The translations under genes and the position numbers were made by a program. From the IMG/VR virus record IMGVR_UViG_3300025647_000049, positions 1-49,433 of that record: 49,433 nucleotides of DNA; one strand, given 5' to 3'. Origin of the DNA: a virus. The stretch's first letter is position 1. Each line of letters opens with the position of its first letter. Below are positions 861 through 17,624 of the stretch, piece after piece. The notes beneath the pieces are model-generated. The model had not been told where the DNA came from, made no database searches, and saw only the letters and a program-made list of their open reading frames with translations.

Positions 861-2135
861 CTATCCTCTTTCTGGAAGGTTATTTGCTCTCCCCGAAACA
901 TCCATTCTTGCTATCTGGTCCGCTCTTTCTTCTTTTTCTTTTCTCAATCTTCTTTTATGAGCCATAGAAAGTAATCCTTTATGTCCAACATGAGAAAGAT
1001 CTTTTGTTTTTGCTTCTAATTCATGTGCCCCAGCTTTTCTATGATGTATTCCCCTTCTCCTTCTTTCTTCTGGAGTATTTTTATTCACTGTTCCCATCAA
1101 GTTTTTAGGATGGTGTCCATGATAAATTCCATCTGCAGCATCTCTTTCTACTCTTTTTTTCCACTCATCATCAGTCATACTTTTCTTCAATTTTGCAGAA
1201 TAATGTATTGGAGTAATATGGTGTGCATCCAAACCCGCTTTTTTTAGTTTTTCTTCTTTTGCTTTACCAGATGCCATATGCTCTGGTGATGATACCGAAT
1301 TTATTCTTTCTTTTCTCCTAGTAGATTGATTATCTCTTTTTGCTTTTAATACTAATCTCCAAAAAGGCATATCAGTAGTTTGAGCATTATTCAGTCTATA
1401 ATCTTTTGGATTTGGTTTTGATTGACGAATCTTCTCAGCATCTTCTCTGGATCTAGTTCTAGTATATTTTTTCGCTTCCATAACAACATAACATTCATAT
1501 ATAAACTCACCAAATGTCTTTTTACCAAAAGAATCATTTAGTTTAGCCATTTGAACACCAGTCTTGGGATTTCTTTCTCCCATTCCTAATTTTTTATAAA
1601 TTCTACCTCTTTGCTCTGCCCCTTCCTCACCACTTCTATTTTTCTTACCCTTAGACTTGGCAGAATCAATAGCAGTAGGAGTGTTTGTAGCAACTCCTTT
1701 CTTTGACTTCATCTTATTCTTTACATCCTTAAGAGCACCAACAAATTGTCTTGCTCTCTGACCAGGATCTCTAACTTTTGATTTGGGAGAACCAACAGTA
1801 ATATCATGGACTGGCGAATCTTTTTTGGCACCAGTTTTACCGAATTGTTTTCTCAATTCTCTACTTTGTGGTTTATCTCCCTCTCTGTGTTGCTTTCTTG
1901 CGGTATGAGCAGCATAATCTCTAGGAGAACTATGAGTTCTTACCCATACAGGAACATCCTTTCCACTCTTTTCAACTTTTGGATCCTGAATTGGACCTCT
2001 TTTTCTAAATCCTGCACGAGAAACATCTCTTCTTGCGGCACCTTCCGATCCAGGAATATCCATAGTCCCAGACTTTTTGATTTTCTTACCCTTCATTAGG
2101 GTCCTTTCATCAAGAATTTCTTCTTCGAAATACAT
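861..2135 (-). CDS. HNH-like nuclease-domain protein with an embedded capsid-targeting-like sequence
   Basis: A very basic protein of 424 residues. The N-terminal 200 residues are low-complexity and rich in K, R and G. The C-terminal part has an HNH-like pattern: AHHITPIH (304-311), HGHHPKNLMG (339-348) and GIHHRKAGAH (362-371), giving HH...N...H spacing. At 205-214 the stretch KKTFGEFIYE closely resembles the T4 internal-protein capsid-targeting sequence MKTYQEFIAE, which the gp21 protease cleaves after the last Glu. The gene sits between uvsW and a 64-codon gene, where T4 has no such gene. A late-type promoter precedes it. It could be a packaged nuclease or a free-standing homing-type endonuclease; the embedded signal favours the first. 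Nuclease activity is not demonstrated. Confidence 0.6.
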   Translation of the reverse strand: MYFEEEILDERTLMKGKKIKKSGTMDIPGSEGAARRDVSRAGFRKRGPIQDPKVEKSGKDVPVWVRTHSSPRDYAAHTARKQHREGDKPQSRELRKQFGKTGAKKDSPVHDITVGSPKSKVRDPGQRARQFVGALKDVKNKMKSKKGVATNTPTAIDSAKSKGKKNRSGEEGAEQRGRIYKKLGMGERNPKTGVQMAKLNDSFGKKTFGEFIYECYVVMEAKKYTRTRSREDAEKIRQSKPNPKDYRLNNAQTTDMPFWRLVLKAKRDNQSTRRKERINSVSSPEHMASGKAKEEKLKKAGLDAHHITPIHYSAKLKKSMTDDEWKKRVERDAADGIYHGHHPKNLMGTVNKNTPEERRRRGIHHRKAGAHELEAKTKDLSHVGHKGLLSMAHKRRLRKEKEERADQIARMDVSGRANNLPERG

Positions 2136-3383: not shown

Positions 3384-3402
3384 ATGTGATAAAGAATCAC
3401 AT
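3384..3402 (-). promoter_or_regulatory. hairpin spanning the gp23 stop codon
   Basis: A 7-bp inverted repeat (ATGTGAT/ATCACAT) with a 5-nt loop, overlapping the last codons and the TGA of gp23, just before the terminator. It may protect the 3' end or act with the terminator. Function is inferred only. Confidence 0.4.
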
Positions 3403-4836
3403 AAGGTTGTTAACACGTACTCTTCTGTAGTAACGGTTAGAGTTAACCTTCAGGCGTCCAAGTCCTTGACCGTCTGCATATGAACCCTCAGCGAATGGAT
3501 TAGCGACGATGCCGTAGCGAGTCTTAAATCCAATTTTTGGCTGGAAGGTGTTCTCACCAACGGCACGAACCATTTGGAGAGGAACATATGGGCAGTAGAA
3601 GAGACCTGCATCGTAAGGCGAAGTACCCTTATAACCAGCAACGAAGTACTGATTAGCAACGTTTCCACCAGCAGCAGAATAAGGATCGATATATACACGA
3701 TACTTACCGGCAAGCACACCAGCAAAGGTGTTACCAGTGTCATCAACGTTCAGGTTAGCGTTGAGAGCAGGAGTATAATCAAGGACACCTGCCATGGTGA
3801 GTGCAGAAGCAACATCGGCAGAGCACATGATCATGTTGCCCTTTCCTCTACGAGTTCTTTGTGCGATAGCGTTGGCTTCGCGCTCGATTTGGAAGATCAG
3901 ACCCTTGAACTTTTCAACAGACCAGCGACCGTTGGAGTCAACGTCGAGGTCGAAGATGCCGGCAGATGCGGTATTTGCTTGAGCACCAGACTCAGCAACC
4001 TTATAGATGGTTCTGATGACTTCGCGGTTGATTTCGGCAAGAATCTCAGTGGAGAGGATGTTTGCCAATTCCGCTTCGGCATTCAGACCGTGGATTGCCT
4101 TGAGGTCTTGAGCAAGCTCAAGTGAATACTCAGCTTTCAGTGCGCGAGACTTGGCAGTAACGGTGACCTTCTCGATCGAGAAAGCCATTTCGTTGAACTC
4201 ACGGCTGTTAGTACCAAGAGATTCAGCATCTTCGGTATCCATACCCTGACCGACTTTATAGTCGAGTTGGGTAGAAGCGTTATCTGGGCTGAGAAGACCA
4301 GGATTGCTTCCCATGCTATTTGATCCCGTAGTACCTAAACCAACGGAAACACCATCAGAACCACTTACATAACCGGATCCAACATCACCAACAGCTCTAG
4401 TGCTGCTAGTTCCGGAGAATGCTGTATCTGCTTCGTCGAAGAATGCTTCGGTGCCGCTCTGTCCGGTATAACGGGAGCGCATTGCGAAGATGAGTCCAGT
4501 AGGACCATTCATTGGTTGGACGCCAGCGAGGTCATAAGCGACCAAGTTAGGCATTGCACGTCTGATCAAAGAGATCAGAACGGGATCGAAACCGGCGGTT
4601 GCACCACCAGCAAGGGATGATGCACCAGAGAAACCTGCGGTTGCACCTGATGAACCAGTGCCGTTAGTTGGAGTCTCGTAAAGAAACTCACGCTCTTCAC
4701 GGAGCATTTGTTCTTGATTTTCCAGGAGCTGGGCGGTAACCATTTTACGATGATTATCCTTGATTTGTCCCATACCCTCATGGTCGAGGATAGGTGCCCA
4801 CTTCTCCTGCAAATACTCTAAATTAGGCATTTGCAT
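3397..4836 (-). CDS. gp23: gp23 major capsid protein precursor
   Basis: A 479-residue precursor of the hexameric head shell protein (T4 gp23 is 521). The N-terminal helical prohead region (1-54) ends in FLYE, matching the gp21 protease preference (hydrophobic-x-Glu). A Gly/Ser/Ala-rich linker follows, then the conserved block RRAMPNLVAYDLAGVQPMNGPTGLIFAMRSRYTG. Unlike its AT-rich neighbours, this gene samples at about 47-53% GC, which fits codon use adapted for very high expression. It is followed by a strong terminator and preceded by gp22. No separate gp24 vertex gene was seen in the window. Confidence 0.97.
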   Translation of the reverse strand: MQMPNLEYLQEKWAPILDHEGMGQIKDNHRKMVTAQLLENQEQMLREEREFLYETPTNGTGSSGATAGFSGASSLAGGATAGFDPVLISLIRRAMPNLVAYDLAGVQPMNGPTGLIFAMRSRYTGQSGTEAFFDEADTAFSGTSSTRAVGDVGSGYVSGSDGVSVGLGTTGSNSMGSNPGLLSPDNASTQLDYKVGQGMDTEDAESLGTNSREFNEMAFSIEKVTVTAKSRALKAEYSLELAQDLKAIHGLNAEAELANILSTEILAEINREVIRTIYKVAESGAQANTASAGIFDLDVDSNGRWSVEKFKGLIFQIEREANAIAQRTRRGKGNMIMCSADVASALTMAGVLDYTPALNANLNVDDTGNTFAGVLAGKYRVYIDPYSAAGGNVANQYFVAGYKGTSPYDAGLFYCPYVPLQMVRAVGENTFQPKIGFKTRYGIVANPFAEGSYADGQGLGRLKVNSNRYYRRVRVNNLM

Positions 4837-4883: not shown

Positions 4884-5972
4884 TCACTTTTTAGAGACTC
4901 TATTCAGAGTGCTCAAGTAAGTTTCCATTAAACCCGAAACAGATTCTTTAGTCTCTGTCGTTTCCTCTGAAATAGTATCAGATTTGTCTCTTTGAGTTCC
5001 GGCATTCTCTGGGAAGTATGACTTACGCAGAGTTACCAGTTTCTCACGATAGTTCTCTTCACTATCAAACTCAACATTTTCCGCAAGAGAAGCGAGTTTA
5101 TCCTTCTGTGAAAGTGCAAGACCTTCACAGACCTCAGAGAAGATTACATCAGCAACCGACTCGGCTAATCTTTGATTGAGAGCAATATTTCTTTCGATCT
5201 GCTCGTTGAGTTTATCTTCCATCTCATCTAATTTCTCTACCATTGTAGAGAGTACATCATATTTTTCTTCAGGGATTGATACATAATGATCTTCAAAAAG
5301 ACTCTTCATTCCAACAAGGAATGATTCGGTCATCTCAGTCTTAAGACCGTGATCGATAGCAAGTTGATTTTCTTGCATCCATTCGTCGGCAACATACTCA
5401 AGGTATGCATCAACTCTATCAGTTAACTGCTCTTTGATAGCAACAACTTCTTCAATAAGAGCAGACTCATATTGCTGTTCAATTTCTTCTTTTACTTCGG
5501 CAATTCTAGAACGAATTGCTGCTTCAAAGATGGTGCGTGCTTTCTCTTGGAATTCTTCGGAAAGATCTTCACCTTCGAGAAGAGCATTTACGTCCTCTTC
5601 AACATCGATTGTTTCTTCAATAACTTCTTCTTCAGAAGTCTCTTCTTCGGAAACTACTTCTTCGTCAGTTTCTTCTTCTTCATAAACAACTTCGCCTTCA
5701 ATTTCTTCCTCTTCCTTTGCCATTTTAGGCATTGCTTCGGCAGGTTTTGCTCCCTTATTAACTACATCTCTCACTTGAGCAAGAATTGCTCCAGCATCTT
5801 TGAGTTTAGCAGAGTCATCATCAACTCTATAGTTTTCTGGGGTAGGACCACCAAGATCCTCTACATTTCCTAACTGTGTGCCAGGATCTGCCATTTTAGG
5901 CATTGGGTCAGCAGCTGCTGCGCCTTTGGTTACTACGTTTTCCATTTCTTGTAAATTGTTACCAACGGACAT
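4884..5972 (-). CDS. gp22: gp22 prohead core scaffold
   Basis: A 362-residue acidic scaffold protein (T4 gp22 is 269). In T4 it forms the assembly core and is degraded by gp21 to small peptides. The sequence has two copies of a KGAxxAxxMPKMA motif in the first 90 residues, then a stretch dominated by Glu (about 91-125), then long helices with coiled-coil character. Several hydrophobic-x-Glu sites could be gp21 cut sites. The length beyond T4 is due to the N-terminal repeat and Glu-rich part. It lies between gp21 and gp23 as expected. Confidence 0.92.
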   Translation of the reverse strand: MSVGNNLQEMENVVTKGAAAADPMPKMADPGTQLGNVEDLGGPTPENYRVDDDSAKLKDAGAILAQVRDVVNKGAKPAEAMPKMAKEEEEIEGEVVYEEEETDEEVVSEEETSEEEVIEETIDVEEDVNALLEGEDLSEEFQEKARTIFEAAIRSRIAEVKEEIEQQYESALIEEVVAIKEQLTDRVDAYLEYVADEWMQENQLAIDHGLKTEMTESFLVGMKSLFEDHYVSIPEEKYDVLSTMVEKLDEMEDKLNEQIERNIALNQRLAESVADVIFSEVCEGLALSQKDKLASLAENVEFDSEENYREKLVTLRKSYFPENAGTQRDKSDTISEETTETKESVSGLMETYLSTLNRVSKK

Positions 5973-6002
5973 TTGATTTATAGATTCGTATTAATCTATA
6001 TT

Positions 6003-6010
6003 TATTTATA
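6003..6010 (-). promoter_or_regulatory. late promoter of gp22 (TATAAATA)
   Basis: A perfect match to the T4 late consensus in the short gap between gp21 and gp22, about 30 nt upstream of the gp22 ATG. It likely also contributes to gp23 expression. Confidence 0.85.
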
Positions 6011-6012
6011 AA

Positions 6013-6663
6013 TTAAAGATTTGAGAGGAATTCGTTGAATAAGTTCAACTTATGCTCTTCAAGTCTTTTTTGATCAACGAGAGTATTAATTCTTCTCTGA
6101 GTTCTTTCTGCAAGTTGTTCACGAAGGATTCCACCTTCCCAAACCCACTCTTTTCCTTCCATAATTCCTTGGACAAATGCATCAGGGGCAGAAGGATCTG
6201 CAACGATATCAGCAGCAGTTGCTAACATGAAATCTTCACCAACAACTTTACAACCACTACGATCTTCTCTCAGTGATCCAACACCACGAGAAGAAACGCC
6301 AAGCATTACACCTTCATCAAGAAGAGAAGATGCAATTTTACCCATTGGAGTATTGAGGATTTGTGCCTTACCCTTAAAATTATTTCCTTCTTGAGTAAGT
6401 GAAGTAATTTTATGAGAGACTCGATCAAGGTTTACAGTAGGTCCATCAGGGTGACCAAGTTCTCCCAGAGCACGACCCTTATTCACAAAAGTTTCATTAT
6501 ATCTTTTTACCTCACGAGAAAGAGTTTCCATTGGATACATTCTTCCATTACGATTTTTGAGGTCGCCTTGAAGGAAAACACCCTCAATGTATAATTTCTT
6601 ACTGGCACCCTTGCCTTCGGTAATAATTTTTACGTTTGATACTTCTTCTGTGATGAGTTTCAT
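6013..6663 (-). CDS. gp21: gp21 prohead core protease
   Basis: A 216-residue serine protease of the T4 gp21 family (T4 is 212). It processes scaffold, capsid and internal proteins during head maturation. Visible are the catalytic-type His in ELGHPDG (H71), the nucleophile region GVSSRG (S124/S125) and an Asp-rich segment AADIVADPSAPDA (151-162). Its predicted cleavage rule (I/L/V-x-E) is the basis for the packaged-protein inferences in this window. It lies between the core peptide genes and gp22, as in T4. Confidence 0.95.
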   Translation of the reverse strand: MKLITEEVSNVKIITEGKGASKKLYIEGVFLQGDLKNRNGRMYPMETLSREVKRYNETFVNKGRALGELGHPDGPTVNLDRVSHKITSLTQEGNNFKGKAQILNTPMGKIASSLLDEGVMLGVSSRGVGSLREDRSGCKVVGEDFMLATAADIVADPSAPDAFVQGIMEGKEWVWEGGILREQLAERTQRRINTLVDQKRLEEHKLNLFNEFLSNL

Positions 6664-6667
6664 TTGA

Positions 6668-6940
6668 TTATCCTGTGAATCCTACTTTTGTTCCTAAGAC
6701 ATCTGTTCCGGTATTAACATGAACAGTATGCGATGGTTGCTTTTCTAACAATTCTGTCGTATTGGCTAACATAGTAAAAGTTCCAATTGTGGGACCAGCA
6801 TTCGTTTCAGATACTGTAATTACATAATCAGTTGTACTTGGGTTTGCCAAGCGAACGACAGTAGCTTCACTAAAACTAGATCCAGCACCAACTGTATTTG
6901 GAACTTGAATTTCTGTTCCCTTTAATAAAATTCTTCCCAT
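6668..6940 (-). CDS. small beta-rich protein between the core peptide and the protease
   Basis: A 90-residue protein rich in Thr, Val and Gly, with predicted beta character and no Cys. Its ATG overlaps the stop of the upstream core-peptide gene (TAATG). T4 has gp68 here, but this sequence does not look like a helical core protein. Location among head genes suggests a head-associated role, possibly decoration. I cannot assign it to a named family. Confidence 0.7.
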   Translation of the reverse strand: MGRILLKGTEIQVPNTVGAGSSFSEATVVRLANPSTTDYVITVSETNAGPTIGTFTMLANTTELLEKQPSHTVHVNTGTDVLGTKVGFTG

Positions 6941-7107
6941 TATTCCTCCTCTTGTGTTGCTTCAGTATCTGCAAATAATGATGCGGCAACTGCTTGTTTC
7001 GAGGAATCTATTTTATTTGCTGCTTTAGCAAATAAAACGTTTTTGATTTTATCGCTAACATCCGATGCACTAGAATCAGTCGCAATCAAATCTATAATTT
7101 CTTCCAT
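6940..7107 (-). CDS. gp67-like prohead core peptide
   Basis: A 55-residue protein, MEEIIDLIATDSS..., with an acidic C-terminus TEATQEEE. Its short, helical, charged makeup and its place directly after the portal gene match T4 gp67, a prohead core protein cut by gp21. Sequence similarity to T4 is weak by eye, so the assignment rests mainly on position. A perfect late promoter lies 23 nt upstream. It overlaps the next gene by one base. Confidence 0.6.
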   Translation of the reverse strand: MEEIIDLIATDSSASDVSDKIKNVLFAKAANKIDSSKQAVAASLFADTEATQEEE

Positions 7108-7129
7108 GTTTTTAATATAATTATAAAAT

Positions 7130-7137
7130 TATTTATA
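7130..7137 (-). promoter_or_regulatory. late promoter of the core-peptide gene (TATAAATA)
   Basis: A perfect late consensus in the gap after gp20, upstream of the ATG at 7107. It would serve the core peptide, the 90-residue protein and gp21. Confidence 0.8.
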
Positions 7138-7142
7138 TTATA

Positions 7143-8786
7143 TTAGACTTGTGTAGATGATCCATCTATTTCTGGTTCCATTGGAACATTACCAAGAGCA
7201 TTTTGCTCTCCACCTTGTGGTAATGGCTCACCAGTTATTGGATCTACAGCACTTGGGTCTGGTATAATACCATCTTTAATTTCTTTTTCTATCCGGGCAT
7301 CTATTTCTATGATTTCAGAATCAGTTTGTCTCAATACTTTACGACGAACATAATCTGCAGAATAAAACTTACCAATATAAGGTTCGATAGTTGCAAGAAT
7401 TCCTAATCTCTCATTCATCAGTTCAGATTCTTTTAATTCTGCAAACTGATTGTCATAAATGAAATCATATTGAATATGATCACTAATCTTTTCCCAATCT
7501 TCCGGAGATACCACATTTTTGAGAATTAATTGCGTCTTAAGCATATCATTAAACATGGATGCAAAACGCTTTCTTAATCTACCAACAAACTTGGCAAATT
7601 TTAATTCATCTCTTAAAATTTCTGATGAACGTCCAAGATTAAAACCACCTTCCGCAGCAATTCTGGACTCCGGAACACCAAGAGATCTATAAAGTTTCTT
7701 TTGAAAATATTCTATATCAGAAAGCTCACCAAGATTTTGACCACCGGGAAGAGTGGTAATTTCTGTTCCCCTACCACCCTCTCTTCTTGGTAACCAAAAA
7801 TCTTCAAGCATACTCATATGCTTGCGATCATCACGAACCTCACCAGTACTTGCATTATAAACAAGTTTATTACGATAACGATTCATAACTTCACGTAGGT
7901 ATTGCTCTGCCTTTACCTTTGGAAGATTGCCAACATCAATATAAAAAATTCTGCGCTCAGGTGCGCGAGATAATCTATAAATTACAAGAGAATCCTCAAT
8001 CATTCTAAGTTGGTTGAGAGATTTGATTGCTTTATGAAGATATGAAAGAACAGTGCCATTGTTTCTATCTACAAGACCAGATGTGCAGTATGTAATAGAA
8101 TCTTTAGAAATTTTTATAGAAGACTTTTGTGATACTCCTGCGGAATAATTATTTGATGGTTGATTTGGAGATGGTGAATATACAAAATATTCTTCAATTT
8201 CTGGAGATATTCCTTTTAGATTATCAGTGTCTCCTCTTAGTGTAGAATTTTGTGCTATGATATTTCTATCTTTTTTCTTTTCTTGTCTAACAAATTTAAT
8301 TTTCAAAGGATCAATATATCTCAGATCCTGAATTCCATCTTGAGGTTTTTTTAAATCAATTACTTTTAGATAATAAAGTCTTCCGTCAACATACCAATTT
8401 TTAAAAATTTCATGTGATTTTCTATCAAAATCTAATATTTCTTTAATTTTCTTAAATTCTTGTCTTATAATACTCTTTAATTTATCACTAGCATTGAGAT
8501 TACTTAATTCAATTTCAACTGGAGAATCATAAAGATCACTAACAATCGCTTCATTAACAACATCTTCAATAGCACCATCACACTCCGGGTGAAGTGCCAT
8601 TTCTCTATATCTTCTGATTAAATCAAATTCTGTACGATAAACGCCTTCAATATCTACATATTGACCATAAAAACCACTACTTATATAATTATCAACCCCG
8701 TCCTCATTAGTTCGAGGAACGGGGGATACTATTGATGGAGATTGTGCGTCTTTTTCCTCAATGGAAAAACCAAATAGTCTGGACAT
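7143..8786 (-). CDS. gp20: gp20 portal vertex protein
   Basis: A 547-residue portal subunit (T4 gp20 is 524). A dodecamer forms the DNA entry channel, nucleates head assembly and docks the terminase. Conserved blocks include YRTEFDLIRRYREMALHPECDGAIEDVVNEA near residues 48-80 and APERRIFYIDVGNLPKVKAEQYL in the middle, both typical of cyanophage gp20, which is a standard marker gene. The C-terminus is Pro- and Gly-rich. It has its own perfect late promoter. Confidence 0.96.
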   Translation of the reverse strand: MSRLFGFSIEEKDAQSPSIVSPVPRTNEDGVDNYISSGFYGQYVDIEGVYRTEFDLIRRYREMALHPECDGAIEDVVNEAIVSDLYDSPVEIELSNLNASDKLKSIIRQEFKKIKEILDFDRKSHEIFKNWYVDGRLYYLKVIDLKKPQDGIQDLRYIDPLKIKFVRQEKKKDRNIIAQNSTLRGDTDNLKGISPEIEEYFVYSPSPNQPSNNYSAGVSQKSSIKISKDSITYCTSGLVDRNNGTVLSYLHKAIKSLNQLRMIEDSLVIYRLSRAPERRIFYIDVGNLPKVKAEQYLREVMNRYRNKLVYNASTGEVRDDRKHMSMLEDFWLPRREGGRGTEITTLPGGQNLGELSDIEYFQKKLYRSLGVPESRIAAEGGFNLGRSSEILRDELKFAKFVGRLRKRFASMFNDMLKTQLILKNVVSPEDWEKISDHIQYDFIYDNQFAELKESELMNERLGILATIEPYIGKFYSADYVRRKVLRQTDSEIIEIDARIEKEIKDGIIPDPSAVDPITGEPLPQGGEQNALGNVPMEPEIDGSSTQV

Positions 8787-16019: not shown

Positions 16020-17624
16020 TCAGCACTTCCAGCGACGACGGGCTTTACAAACAGGTTTATCGGGGGTTTTAGAGCAATCAATGTTATGCATGTCTTGCTG
16101 ACCCTTAGAGCGAGCACAGAAAGACTTTCTACGCTTGGCATCCTTACTACCTGGTTCTGGATCACCAGTTACGGCAGTCTTGAGTTTAGAACCTGGATTC
16201 TCTCGACGATATGCTTTGACCGCAGCAGGGCTCATACCATCAGTTTTATCAGACTTATTTACTTTCTGCCAATCTTCTCTCATAGCAGAAAGTTTTGCTG
16301 CTACTGCCATCTCACGACGCTTTTCTTTTGATTTTCCTTCAAACTGTGGGGCATCGGATTTATAAAAATCTTTTACCACTTTCCCCATTTCTGCCTTTTG
16401 GAGATTTAATTTCTCATCGAGTTCTAATCTCCAATCAGAAAAAGATTCATTTTTAACTTTGGTTCTAAATTTTCCAAATGGAGTAGGAAGTTGTTCTCCA
16501 TATTCTCCTGTTTTTTTCTCAACTTTGTCCTTAGGATCTACATCACCATCAACATCATAATCAATTCTTTTAACTGCTTTTTTGACAAGTTTTTTGAGAT
16601 CTTTTGATGGCACTTCTTTTTCAAAATCCTCATAAACTTTTTTACCATCAACAATACGACCTTTTCCGTGCTTATCGTAAAACTTTACATATCCTCTAGG
16701 AAGTTTTTTCTTTTCTGGGTCATCTTTTCTTTTTTTATAAGTGTCTGGAGCATCTGGATCTGGTATTCTAATACCAGTAGTTCCAATCATTTCATCAATC
16801 TTCTCACCATTTAATGGTTCAGGTTTGATAATATCAATGAACTCATATTCAGTTGCCTTAAAATCATCTCTCCAATTAGAAAATTCCACTGATTCTGTCT
16901 TATTTCCCCAGTTAGCAGCACCAACTTTACGGCACTTAACCAGAGCACCTGAGGCATACGCACTTGGCCAGACAGAATAACGAGACTTGACCTTGTTATA
17001 GCAGGCATCTTTCTTGCCGCTACCTTTACCTGGTTTATCTTTTACTTCTTGGATGTTCATTTCTTCAGTTTTTACGTTAGTTGGTTTGGCAGCACCAGAT
17101 TTTTCTGGTTGATTTGGATCTTGACGATTTTTTCTTCTTCTTGCAGATTCCTCTTCTTCGGCACTCAAATTTGCTGCCATTTTAGAACTTCCGCACTTTG
17201 GCGTTGAAGTTTGACCTGGTTGACGAGCACAAGGTTTACCTGCCCATTTGCCACCAAGTTGAACCCATCCCTTTTTACCATCTGAAGACTTGGATTTACC
17301 AAACCAATCGCGAAGACCTTGATCCCCAGATTTTGTTTCTTCATTAGTCACATAATCTGCTGCAGTATCAATATAATCTGCTGCTTTGGTAATTTTAGAT
17401 TGAACCCATGCTTGCAAATTCCCCTCACCTTTCTTTCCCATCTTCTTTTGAAGACGCTTTACGGCATTGGTTACGGTCTTTAATTCTGACCGTGCCATGG
17501 AGTATTCGTGATCTTTCTTTTCTTCACTCATTTTCTTTTTGCGACCCTGGCAGTGAGCACGTTGACTGAAACCTTTTGGGTTGTTGCAATCAATTGATTT
17601 TTTATATTTTTCTGACCAACCCAT
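16020..17624 (-). CDS. cysteine-rich basic mosaic protein of small repeated modules
   Basis: A 534-residue Lys/Arg-rich protein made of short Cys-containing modules joined by linkers: 1-31 (WSEKYKKSIDCNNPKGFSQR, C13, C25); 101-176 (GWVQLGGKWAGKPCARQ, C132, C144); 199-242 (KKDACYNKVKSRYSVWPSAY, C208, C231); and 463-534 (RRKSFCARSKG and a WKC end, C503, C517, C526, C534). A Ca-loop-like DVDGDVDPKD lies at 357-366, and FS[ND]WR motifs recur at 248-251 and 395-398. Such modules recur in other phages and, as I recall, in large algal viruses as domains of unknown function. DNA binding in the virion is plausible but unproven. It lies between gp16 and the capsid-targeted protein. Confidence 0.6.
   Translation of the reverse strand: MGWSEKYKKSIDCNNPKGFSQRAHCQGRKKKMSEEKKDHEYSMARSELKTVTNAVKRLQKKMGKKGEGNLQAWVQSKITKAADYIDTAADYVTNEETKSGDQGLRDWFGKSKSSDGKKGWVQLGGKWAGKPCARQPGQTSTPKCGSSKMAANLSAEEEESARRRKNRQDPNQPEKSGAAKPTNVKTEEMNIQEVKDKPGKGSGKKDACYNKVKSRYSVWPSAYASGALVKCRKVGAANWGNKTESVEFSNWRDDFKATEYEFIDIIKPEPLNGEKIDEMIGTTGIRIPDPDAPDTYKKRKDDPEKKKLPRGYVKFYDKHGKGRIVDGKKVYEDFEKEVPSKDLKKLVKKAVKRIDYDVDGDVDPKDKVEKKTGEYGEQLPTPFGKFRTKVKNESFSDWRLELDEKLNLQKAEMGKVVKDFYKSDAPQFEGKSKEKRREMAVAAKLSAMREDWQKVNKSDKTDGMSPAAVKAYRRENPGSKLKTAVTGDPEPGSKDAKRRKSFCARSKGQQDMHNIDCSKTPDKPVCKARRRWKC

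Follow-up and report, generated by a model that had tools for sequence, protein, structure and literature searches.

Proteins injected along with phage DNA have their textbook example in the internal head proteins of phage T4. Polymorphic toxins represent a second design: a constant N-terminal part leads into a short conserved junction that contains a processing site, and the nucleases or other enzymes that follow at the C-terminus are swapped. In T4, the proteins IPI, IPII, IPIII, and Alt share a ten-residue tag of the form [KR][TS][FY]..F[IL].E together with the [LI]xE rule (PMC9026906, PMC12373910). Tag residues 4 and 7 matter most for targeting, and residues 8 and 10 for processing, the gp21 cleavage rule being L/I-x-E (PMC9026906), and all three T4 internal proteins have been reported to block restriction (PMC12373910). 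In the T4 genome (NC_000866) ipII and ipIII begin MKTYQEFIAE, just as an earlier sequence-only reading of the present locus had stated, and ipI begins MKTFKEFT. Polyvalent proteins likewise place several domains in one injected polypeptide (PMC5512222). Further, S-CREM2 gp6 (PMC10665884) and the SAM lyase Svi3-3 (PMC7877911) belong to an enzyme class known for anti-restriction (PMC7877911); gp6 stands alone, and no targeting tag is described in the available parts of PMC10665884.

The DNA considered here, called the window in its entirety, is IMG/VR virus record IMGVR_UViG_3300025647_000049, positions 1-49,433, read as a single strand. It encodes a 424-aa protein that, judged from its sequence, probably acts like the T4 internal proteins, with which its family has in common an [LI]xE site at the tag end, a basic cargo, a cargo that varies behind a constant tag, and a gp21 gene in the genome. 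Unlike those proteins, the family carries a second, internal tag copy between two modules, and its cargo is enzymatic (HNH-like or SAM lyase), with alternatives that replace one another at a single site downstream of a conserved module. It resembles polymorphic toxins in its constant N-terminal and exchanged C-terminal parts and in the short conserved junction, with its processing site, that joins them, but it is phage-encoded, has no immunity gene beside the cargo, is proposed to be delivered by the virion, and has cargos that also occur alone. In contrast to polyvalent proteins, there is one cargo per protein with capsid-protease sites at its borders, and hallmark domains such as MPTase and ArdC-N were absent from the window protein in Pfam, PHROG, and NCBIfam searches. 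The S-CREM2 and Svi3-3 enzymes are of the same family as one cargo type (G), gp6 lacking the fusion to the conserved module. Taken together, we consider it reasonably likely that the 424-aa protein is a two-signal internal-head pro-protein of a T4-like cyanophage with an exchangeable effector cargo.

The gene and its neighborhood

The open reading frame at 861-2135 lies on the minus strand, which the sequence-only reading had not stated, and runs from an ATG start to a TAG stop. It falls into three parts: a conserved basic N-module with no assigned fold (residues 11-204; 1524..2105, minus strand, as are all window features below), the motif KKTFGEFIYE (residues 205-214; 1494..1523), and a basic, HNH-like C-terminal cargo, designated type A (residues 221-424; 864..1475), that bears an HNH signature. 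The gene order on the common strand is gp20, gp21, gp22, gp23, a 181-aa protein, UvsY (matching PF11056), a 64-aa protein, the 424-aa gene, and, next after it, a UvsW-like helicase that starts at 822 and runs downward; gp20 and UvsW are what we take these genes to be from gene order and recognition. The prohead protease gp21 (6013..6663; PF03420, E 4.8e-35) is the presumed processing enzyme, and the scaffold core protein gp22 (4884..5972; PF25623, E 3.5e-80) the presumed docking partner. The major capsid protein gp23 (3397..4836; PF07068, E 2.3e-148) carries in its N-terminal region the segment EFLYE/TP (4675-4689; a slash marks a candidate cut throughout), which resembles EFIYE/C of the 424-aa protein and is, we infer from the sequence, the presumed site of gp21 maturation. 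In its gp20-gp23 block the window comes nearest to Synechococcus and Prochlorococcus myoviruses, S-SKS1 being one of them (73-77% DNA identity). Because the interval from uvsY to the helicase in S-SKS1 holds only one 60-aa gene, the 424-aa gene is an accessory insertion. Searches of the window protein against Pfam, PHROGs, and NCBIfam gave no domain above cut-off, and a sequence search of the PDB gave no match.

Probable capsid-type signals at two positions

Two IMG/VR scans yielded 43 loci in which the N-module is conserved, with best segments 64-100% identical, and in which a sharp break at the motif separates it from differing cargos; Synechococcus phage DSL-LC02 also has the module, in its cargo-less form. 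The motif was not part of the second-scan patterns for the N-module, whereas the first-scan pattern did contain YECYVVME. An AF2 model of the N-module (pLDDT 59) had no PDB match at E <= 0.001 with Foldseek, and acetyltransferase-like Foldseek matches were set aside (E 0.3-1, model pLDDT only 59).

The mid-protein position of KKTFGEFIYE, with CYVVMEAKK following, agrees with the sequence-only reading. T4 tag positions 4, 7, 8, and 10 correspond to F208, F211, I212, and E214, and when the tag is expressed as an aromatic residue at 4, F at 7, I or L at 8, and E at 10, it is the internal copy and not the N-terminus that fits all four. A search of the window's proteins (14,811 aa) with the pattern K[TS][FY].[EQ]F[IL].E gives a single match, at 205-214, against 0.00 in shuffles of these proteins (0.01 for a looser form); the pattern was composed after the site was seen, and conservation is therefore a better test than the chance figure. 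In the alignment of homologues that the earlier reading had proposed for this purpose, 27 of the 29 distinct junctions have the [TS]F..F core at this place.

That reading had overlooked the N-terminal site, along with the C-terminal swapping and the stand-alone cargos that start with the motif. The segment MYFEEEILDE (residues 1-10; 2106..2135) is a probable N-terminal propeptide or capsid-targeting segment with a gp21-type end, LDE/RT. It fits T4 tag positions 8 and 10 only, without the targeting residues 4 and 7. Some N-module relatives begin MKTFKEFLEEAR; in six (L045-L048, L051, L052), MKTFKEFLEE/AR or a close variant occupies the position of residues 1-10, the start being MKTFKEFLEEAREL or a close variant at the window's MYFEEEILDERTL. 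Stand-alone relatives and six N-module relatives fit the T4 tag positions at their own N-terminus, and [LI]xE is found at residue 10 in most members of the N-module family. Targeting may thus proceed from the protein's own N-terminus, the internal copy then being a cleavage site or a fusion relic. This qualifies the gp21-cut polyprotein that had been proposed, in favor of which stand the motif, the modular architecture, the junction site, gp21 (PF03420) in the genome, and a tagged stand-alone SAM lyase detected in S-CREM2 virions.

Where the junction would be cut is a related question. Within the window protein [LI]xE occurs only at residues 10, 214, and 422, with VME at 220. At the family junction [LI]xE is enriched (1.31 versus 0.39 in shuffles), and in the N-module it is not. 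The candidate cuts are IYE/CY after E214 and VME/AK at the end of CYVVME (residues 215-220; 1476..1493), where relatives have ILE/A or ILE/V. A third site, LPE/RG (residues 420-422; 870..878), lies close to the C-terminus and is present also in locus L020. Given that ILE directly ends the tag in L048, L054, and stand-alone type C proteins, and that most type A-D fusions have six extra residues and a second [ILV]xE after the tag, E220 and E214 are equally good candidates. The junction may be cut after E220 rather than E214, and the released peptide beginning CYVVMEAKK that had been predicted from a cut after 214 may consequently be wrong, the relatives pointing at least equally to 220.

Stand-alone cargos and the probable origin of the fusion

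A scan with an HNH-core pattern, from which the motif was excluded, recovered the cargo in other settings. Stand-alone HNH-cargo proteins begin MKTFKEFILEVNRP in L082 and L084, and other starts are MKTFQEFILE (L085), MKTFREFILE (L087), and MKTFREFTE (L088), the form MKTFKEFILE being seen as well. The same HNH cargo lies behind other carrier modules in L072-L078, with internal KTFKEFFEE, KTFKEFVEE, KTFEEFVKE, or KTFN[SA]FVIE. The sequence-only reading had regarded homologues that keep the nuclease without the motif as contrary evidence; the motif is kept in 12 of 14 further HNH-cargo loci, the exceptions being L081 and L083, which have a distant N-module, a capsid-targeting-like N-terminal start (MITFTEFLELCE or MITFREFVERVE), and at the junction only ILE/V without KTF.EF. 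Residues 2-166 of L082 align with window residues 206-371 (E 2.5e-13), which makes the internal motif the counterpart of an N-terminal tag. SAM lyases of cultured and single-cell marine phages are likewise stand-alone or N-terminal, with tag-like starts (MKTFKEFLEE, MKTYKEFIQD, MRTFQEFLQL, MKNFEEFKEQ, MITFQEFCSQ, MKDFDSFLEE), and an alignment of the L055 cargo, from the junction motif on, with S-CREM2 gp6 starts at residue 1 of the latter (55%, E 1e-49). Since the cargo swaps as a cassette and its tag matches the stand-alone N-terminal tag, the 424-aa protein appears to have arisen when a tagged cargo was fused in frame to the N-module.

Such a fusion might have left nothing but a relic, with a tagged nuclease carrying its old tag behind the N-module, the protein packaged through its N-terminus, and the junction uncut. 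The alignment of the internal motif with the N-terminal tags of stand-alone cargos would be expected on this account, as would the N-terminal [LI]xE site at residue 10 and the persistence of the motif in cargo-less forms. We nevertheless think it unlikely, given that F208, F211, and an [LI]xE close by persist in junctions that are otherwise divergent, and that L081 and L083 have lost the targeting core but kept ILE/V, as expected under selection for cutting. As for the cargo-less forms, cargo-less or truncated members include L018, L031, L032-L035, L039, L041, and L042-L046, most of which stop at or soon after the motif, and in nine rows of the N-module tree set the cargo is missing or reduced to remnants. 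The motif is not tied to the presence of cargo, as some cargo-less members keep it at their C-terminus, and cargo loss is suggested by the ends of most of them near the motif and by the cargo C remnant retained in L045 and L046.

Identity and exchange of the cargo

The HNH signature of the window cargo spans residues 303-372 (1020..1229) with H305, H306, N345, H365, and H371. Among 19 cargos, H305 and H306 are invariant and N345, H365, and H371 nearly so. Pfam HNH_2 was found in 5 of the 19, all below cut-off (best E 0.047), and an AF2 model of the cargo (mean pLDDT 79, falling below 50 in model residues 152-169, beside the last signature histidine) had no match in the PDB at E <= 0.001 with Foldseek, so the HNH fold is not confirmed. 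The HNH-like domain of the earlier reading is accordingly upheld at the level of its residues and not by profile or model, and from this signature the cargo is likely to be an HNH nuclease. Resemblance to AHH/EHHH toxin nucleases is not claimed, there being no profile match, and the idea that the N-module holds the nuclease off until cleavage is weakened by stand-alone nucleases with only the ten-residue tag.

The nuclease proposed as the released product is, moreover, one among several alternative cargos. At least seven cargo types stand behind the junction: A, B, C, D, and F are HNH-like, E has no HNH signature, and G is a SAM lyase. Type G matches the SAM lyase model PF23780 with E 4.5e-16 in L055 (59.5 bits against a cut-off of 28; L053 32.1, L049 31.6; L037 and L040 under the cut-off); a sequence search of the PDB with this cargo gave no match. 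Type E (L029 at 6001-7302, and L030) has no family match, and its junction reads KTFQEFMMIAE/G.

Exchange of these cargos is visible between close relatives. L022 (cargo B) and L010 (cargo C) are 93-100% identical in 60-base windows over the N-module DNA, their identity breaks off at the end of codon 220, the GAA of ILE/, and behind the stop codon both have the same hairpin and then the same gene, so that the two differ only between junction and stop codon. At least 14 cargo changes are required on the N-module DNA tree, including changes between supported sisters (A/C, 99/97; D/F, 95/81) and a B/C change inside one 99/96 clade. The last 14 residues, MDVSGRANNLPERG, are common to the window's cargo A (861-905) and the cargo C of L020, the remainder differing strongly, and for this reason recombination may also happen inside the cargo. 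No immunity-like gene was found directly downstream of the cargo: in the window that place is held by uvsW, and in several relatives by the hairpin and one constant next gene, irrespective of the cargo. Among cultured phages, no match to cargo types A, C, or D was found. The 22 pattern matches to the cargo in bacterial and archaeal genomes included no relative, and no bacterial toxin source was thus found.

These swaps might alternatively reflect homing, an HNH endonuclease module having inserted itself in a structural or accessory gene, with no delivery involved. Many homing nucleases are known in T4-like phages, HNH signatures occur in five of the seven cargo types, and the cassette borders are sharp. 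Such an origin is nonetheless quite improbable, as a SAM lyase and type E, of no assigned family, hold the same slot, the inserted modules continue the reading frame behind a capsid tag, and stand-alone forms bear the tag at their own N-terminus. The nuclease may still help in cargo exchange, which is compatible with these objections.

Evidence from virions

Virion data for tagged proteins of this kind come from S-CREM2 (PMC10665884). In CsCl-purified virions of that phage, 19 unique peptides of gp6 were identified, together with gp12, annotated as a Cas9 nuclease (28 peptides), and gp154, a cytidylyltransferase; encapsulation was suggested by the authors, yet virion-associated proteins were considered possible contaminants. 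The start of gp6 is the tag-like MKDFDSFLEE. Other virion-detected proteins of the phage (OR473000) with tag-like N-termini are gp12 (LRFASFMAEA), gp13 (MKDLHSFLTE), gp14 (VKRFDAFLTE), gp136 (MQTFSMFFSE), and gp154 (MKNFSSFLTE), and the C-terminal end of gp12 reads EPKTFRDFLN. Of the 8 S-CREM2 proteins with [FYL]..F[LIMFV].E within the first 30 residues, 7 were detected in virions, versus 44 of the 210 others (one-sided p 1.8e-4), with p 7e-4 for the first tag pattern used and p 0.014 for plain [FYL]..F..E (7/13 detected), all of these figures being indicative only because the pattern was tuned after a first look.

In the window itself, the gene at 16020-17624 encodes a 534-aa protein with a C-terminal DUF6321, the middle part of which is 67% identical to the L073 carrier module. 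That module, which precedes an internal tag and HNH cargo, is 45% identical to S-CREM2 gp160, and gp137 and gp160, homologues of the 534-aa protein, were both detected in S-CREM2 virions (PMC10665884). The 534-aa protein is possibly another internal head protein.

These observations bear on whether the motif is a capsid signal at all or merely a conserved linker in a cytoplasmic enzyme of the infected cell. Similar patterns do occur in a few S-CREM2 proteins that were not seen in virions. On the other hand, the stand-alone forms match the T4 tag nearly letter for letter, and the proteins detected in virions include both a homologous cargo that bears the tag and a protein related to another carrier module; of all the explanations weighed, the linker seems to us the least credible.

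Proposed function and implications

In the reading we prefer, that of an internal-head pro-protein, two targeting and cleavage segments would operate, one at the N-terminus (residues 1-10) and one at the junction of N-module and cargo (residues 205-220). The pro-protein would enter the prohead core by its N-terminal tag, its internal tag, or both. The protease gp21 would then cleave at two points, behind residue 10 and behind either E214 or E220, and so free two basic products, the N-module and the C-terminal enzyme, both of which would be injected with the DNA. We infer these steps of packaging, cutting, and injection, as well as the nuclease activity, for the 424-aa protein. In the window phage the enzyme would probably be an HNH-type nuclease, whose target might be the host chromosome, prophages, plasmids, or rival phages, and in relatives other HNH types or a SAM lyase would take the same slot. 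Early host take-over or counter-defense is the likely use: the SAM lyase class found in the slot is anti-restriction (PMC7877911), and the injected T4 proteins are reported to block restriction (PMC12373910).

More broadly, and more tentatively, T4-like cyanophages might maintain an arsenal of capsid-tagged effectors. In this arsenal, a pro-protein with two capsid signals would be cut into two injected products, the second of which varies between unrelated enzymes (nucleases directed at host or rival-phage DNA, a SAM lyase directed at restriction) in a virion-delivered counterpart of the polymorphic toxins, with the N-module as a further effector. The findings extend the tag to environmental cyanophages and make a recent exchange of enzyme cargos visible at the level of single bases. 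They also indicate a possible route by which SAM lyases and HNH proteins reach cyanophage virions. Finally, the tag may serve as a search handle: any sequence that follows it would be a candidate for injection as an effector, in viruses that are among the commonest of seas and lakes.
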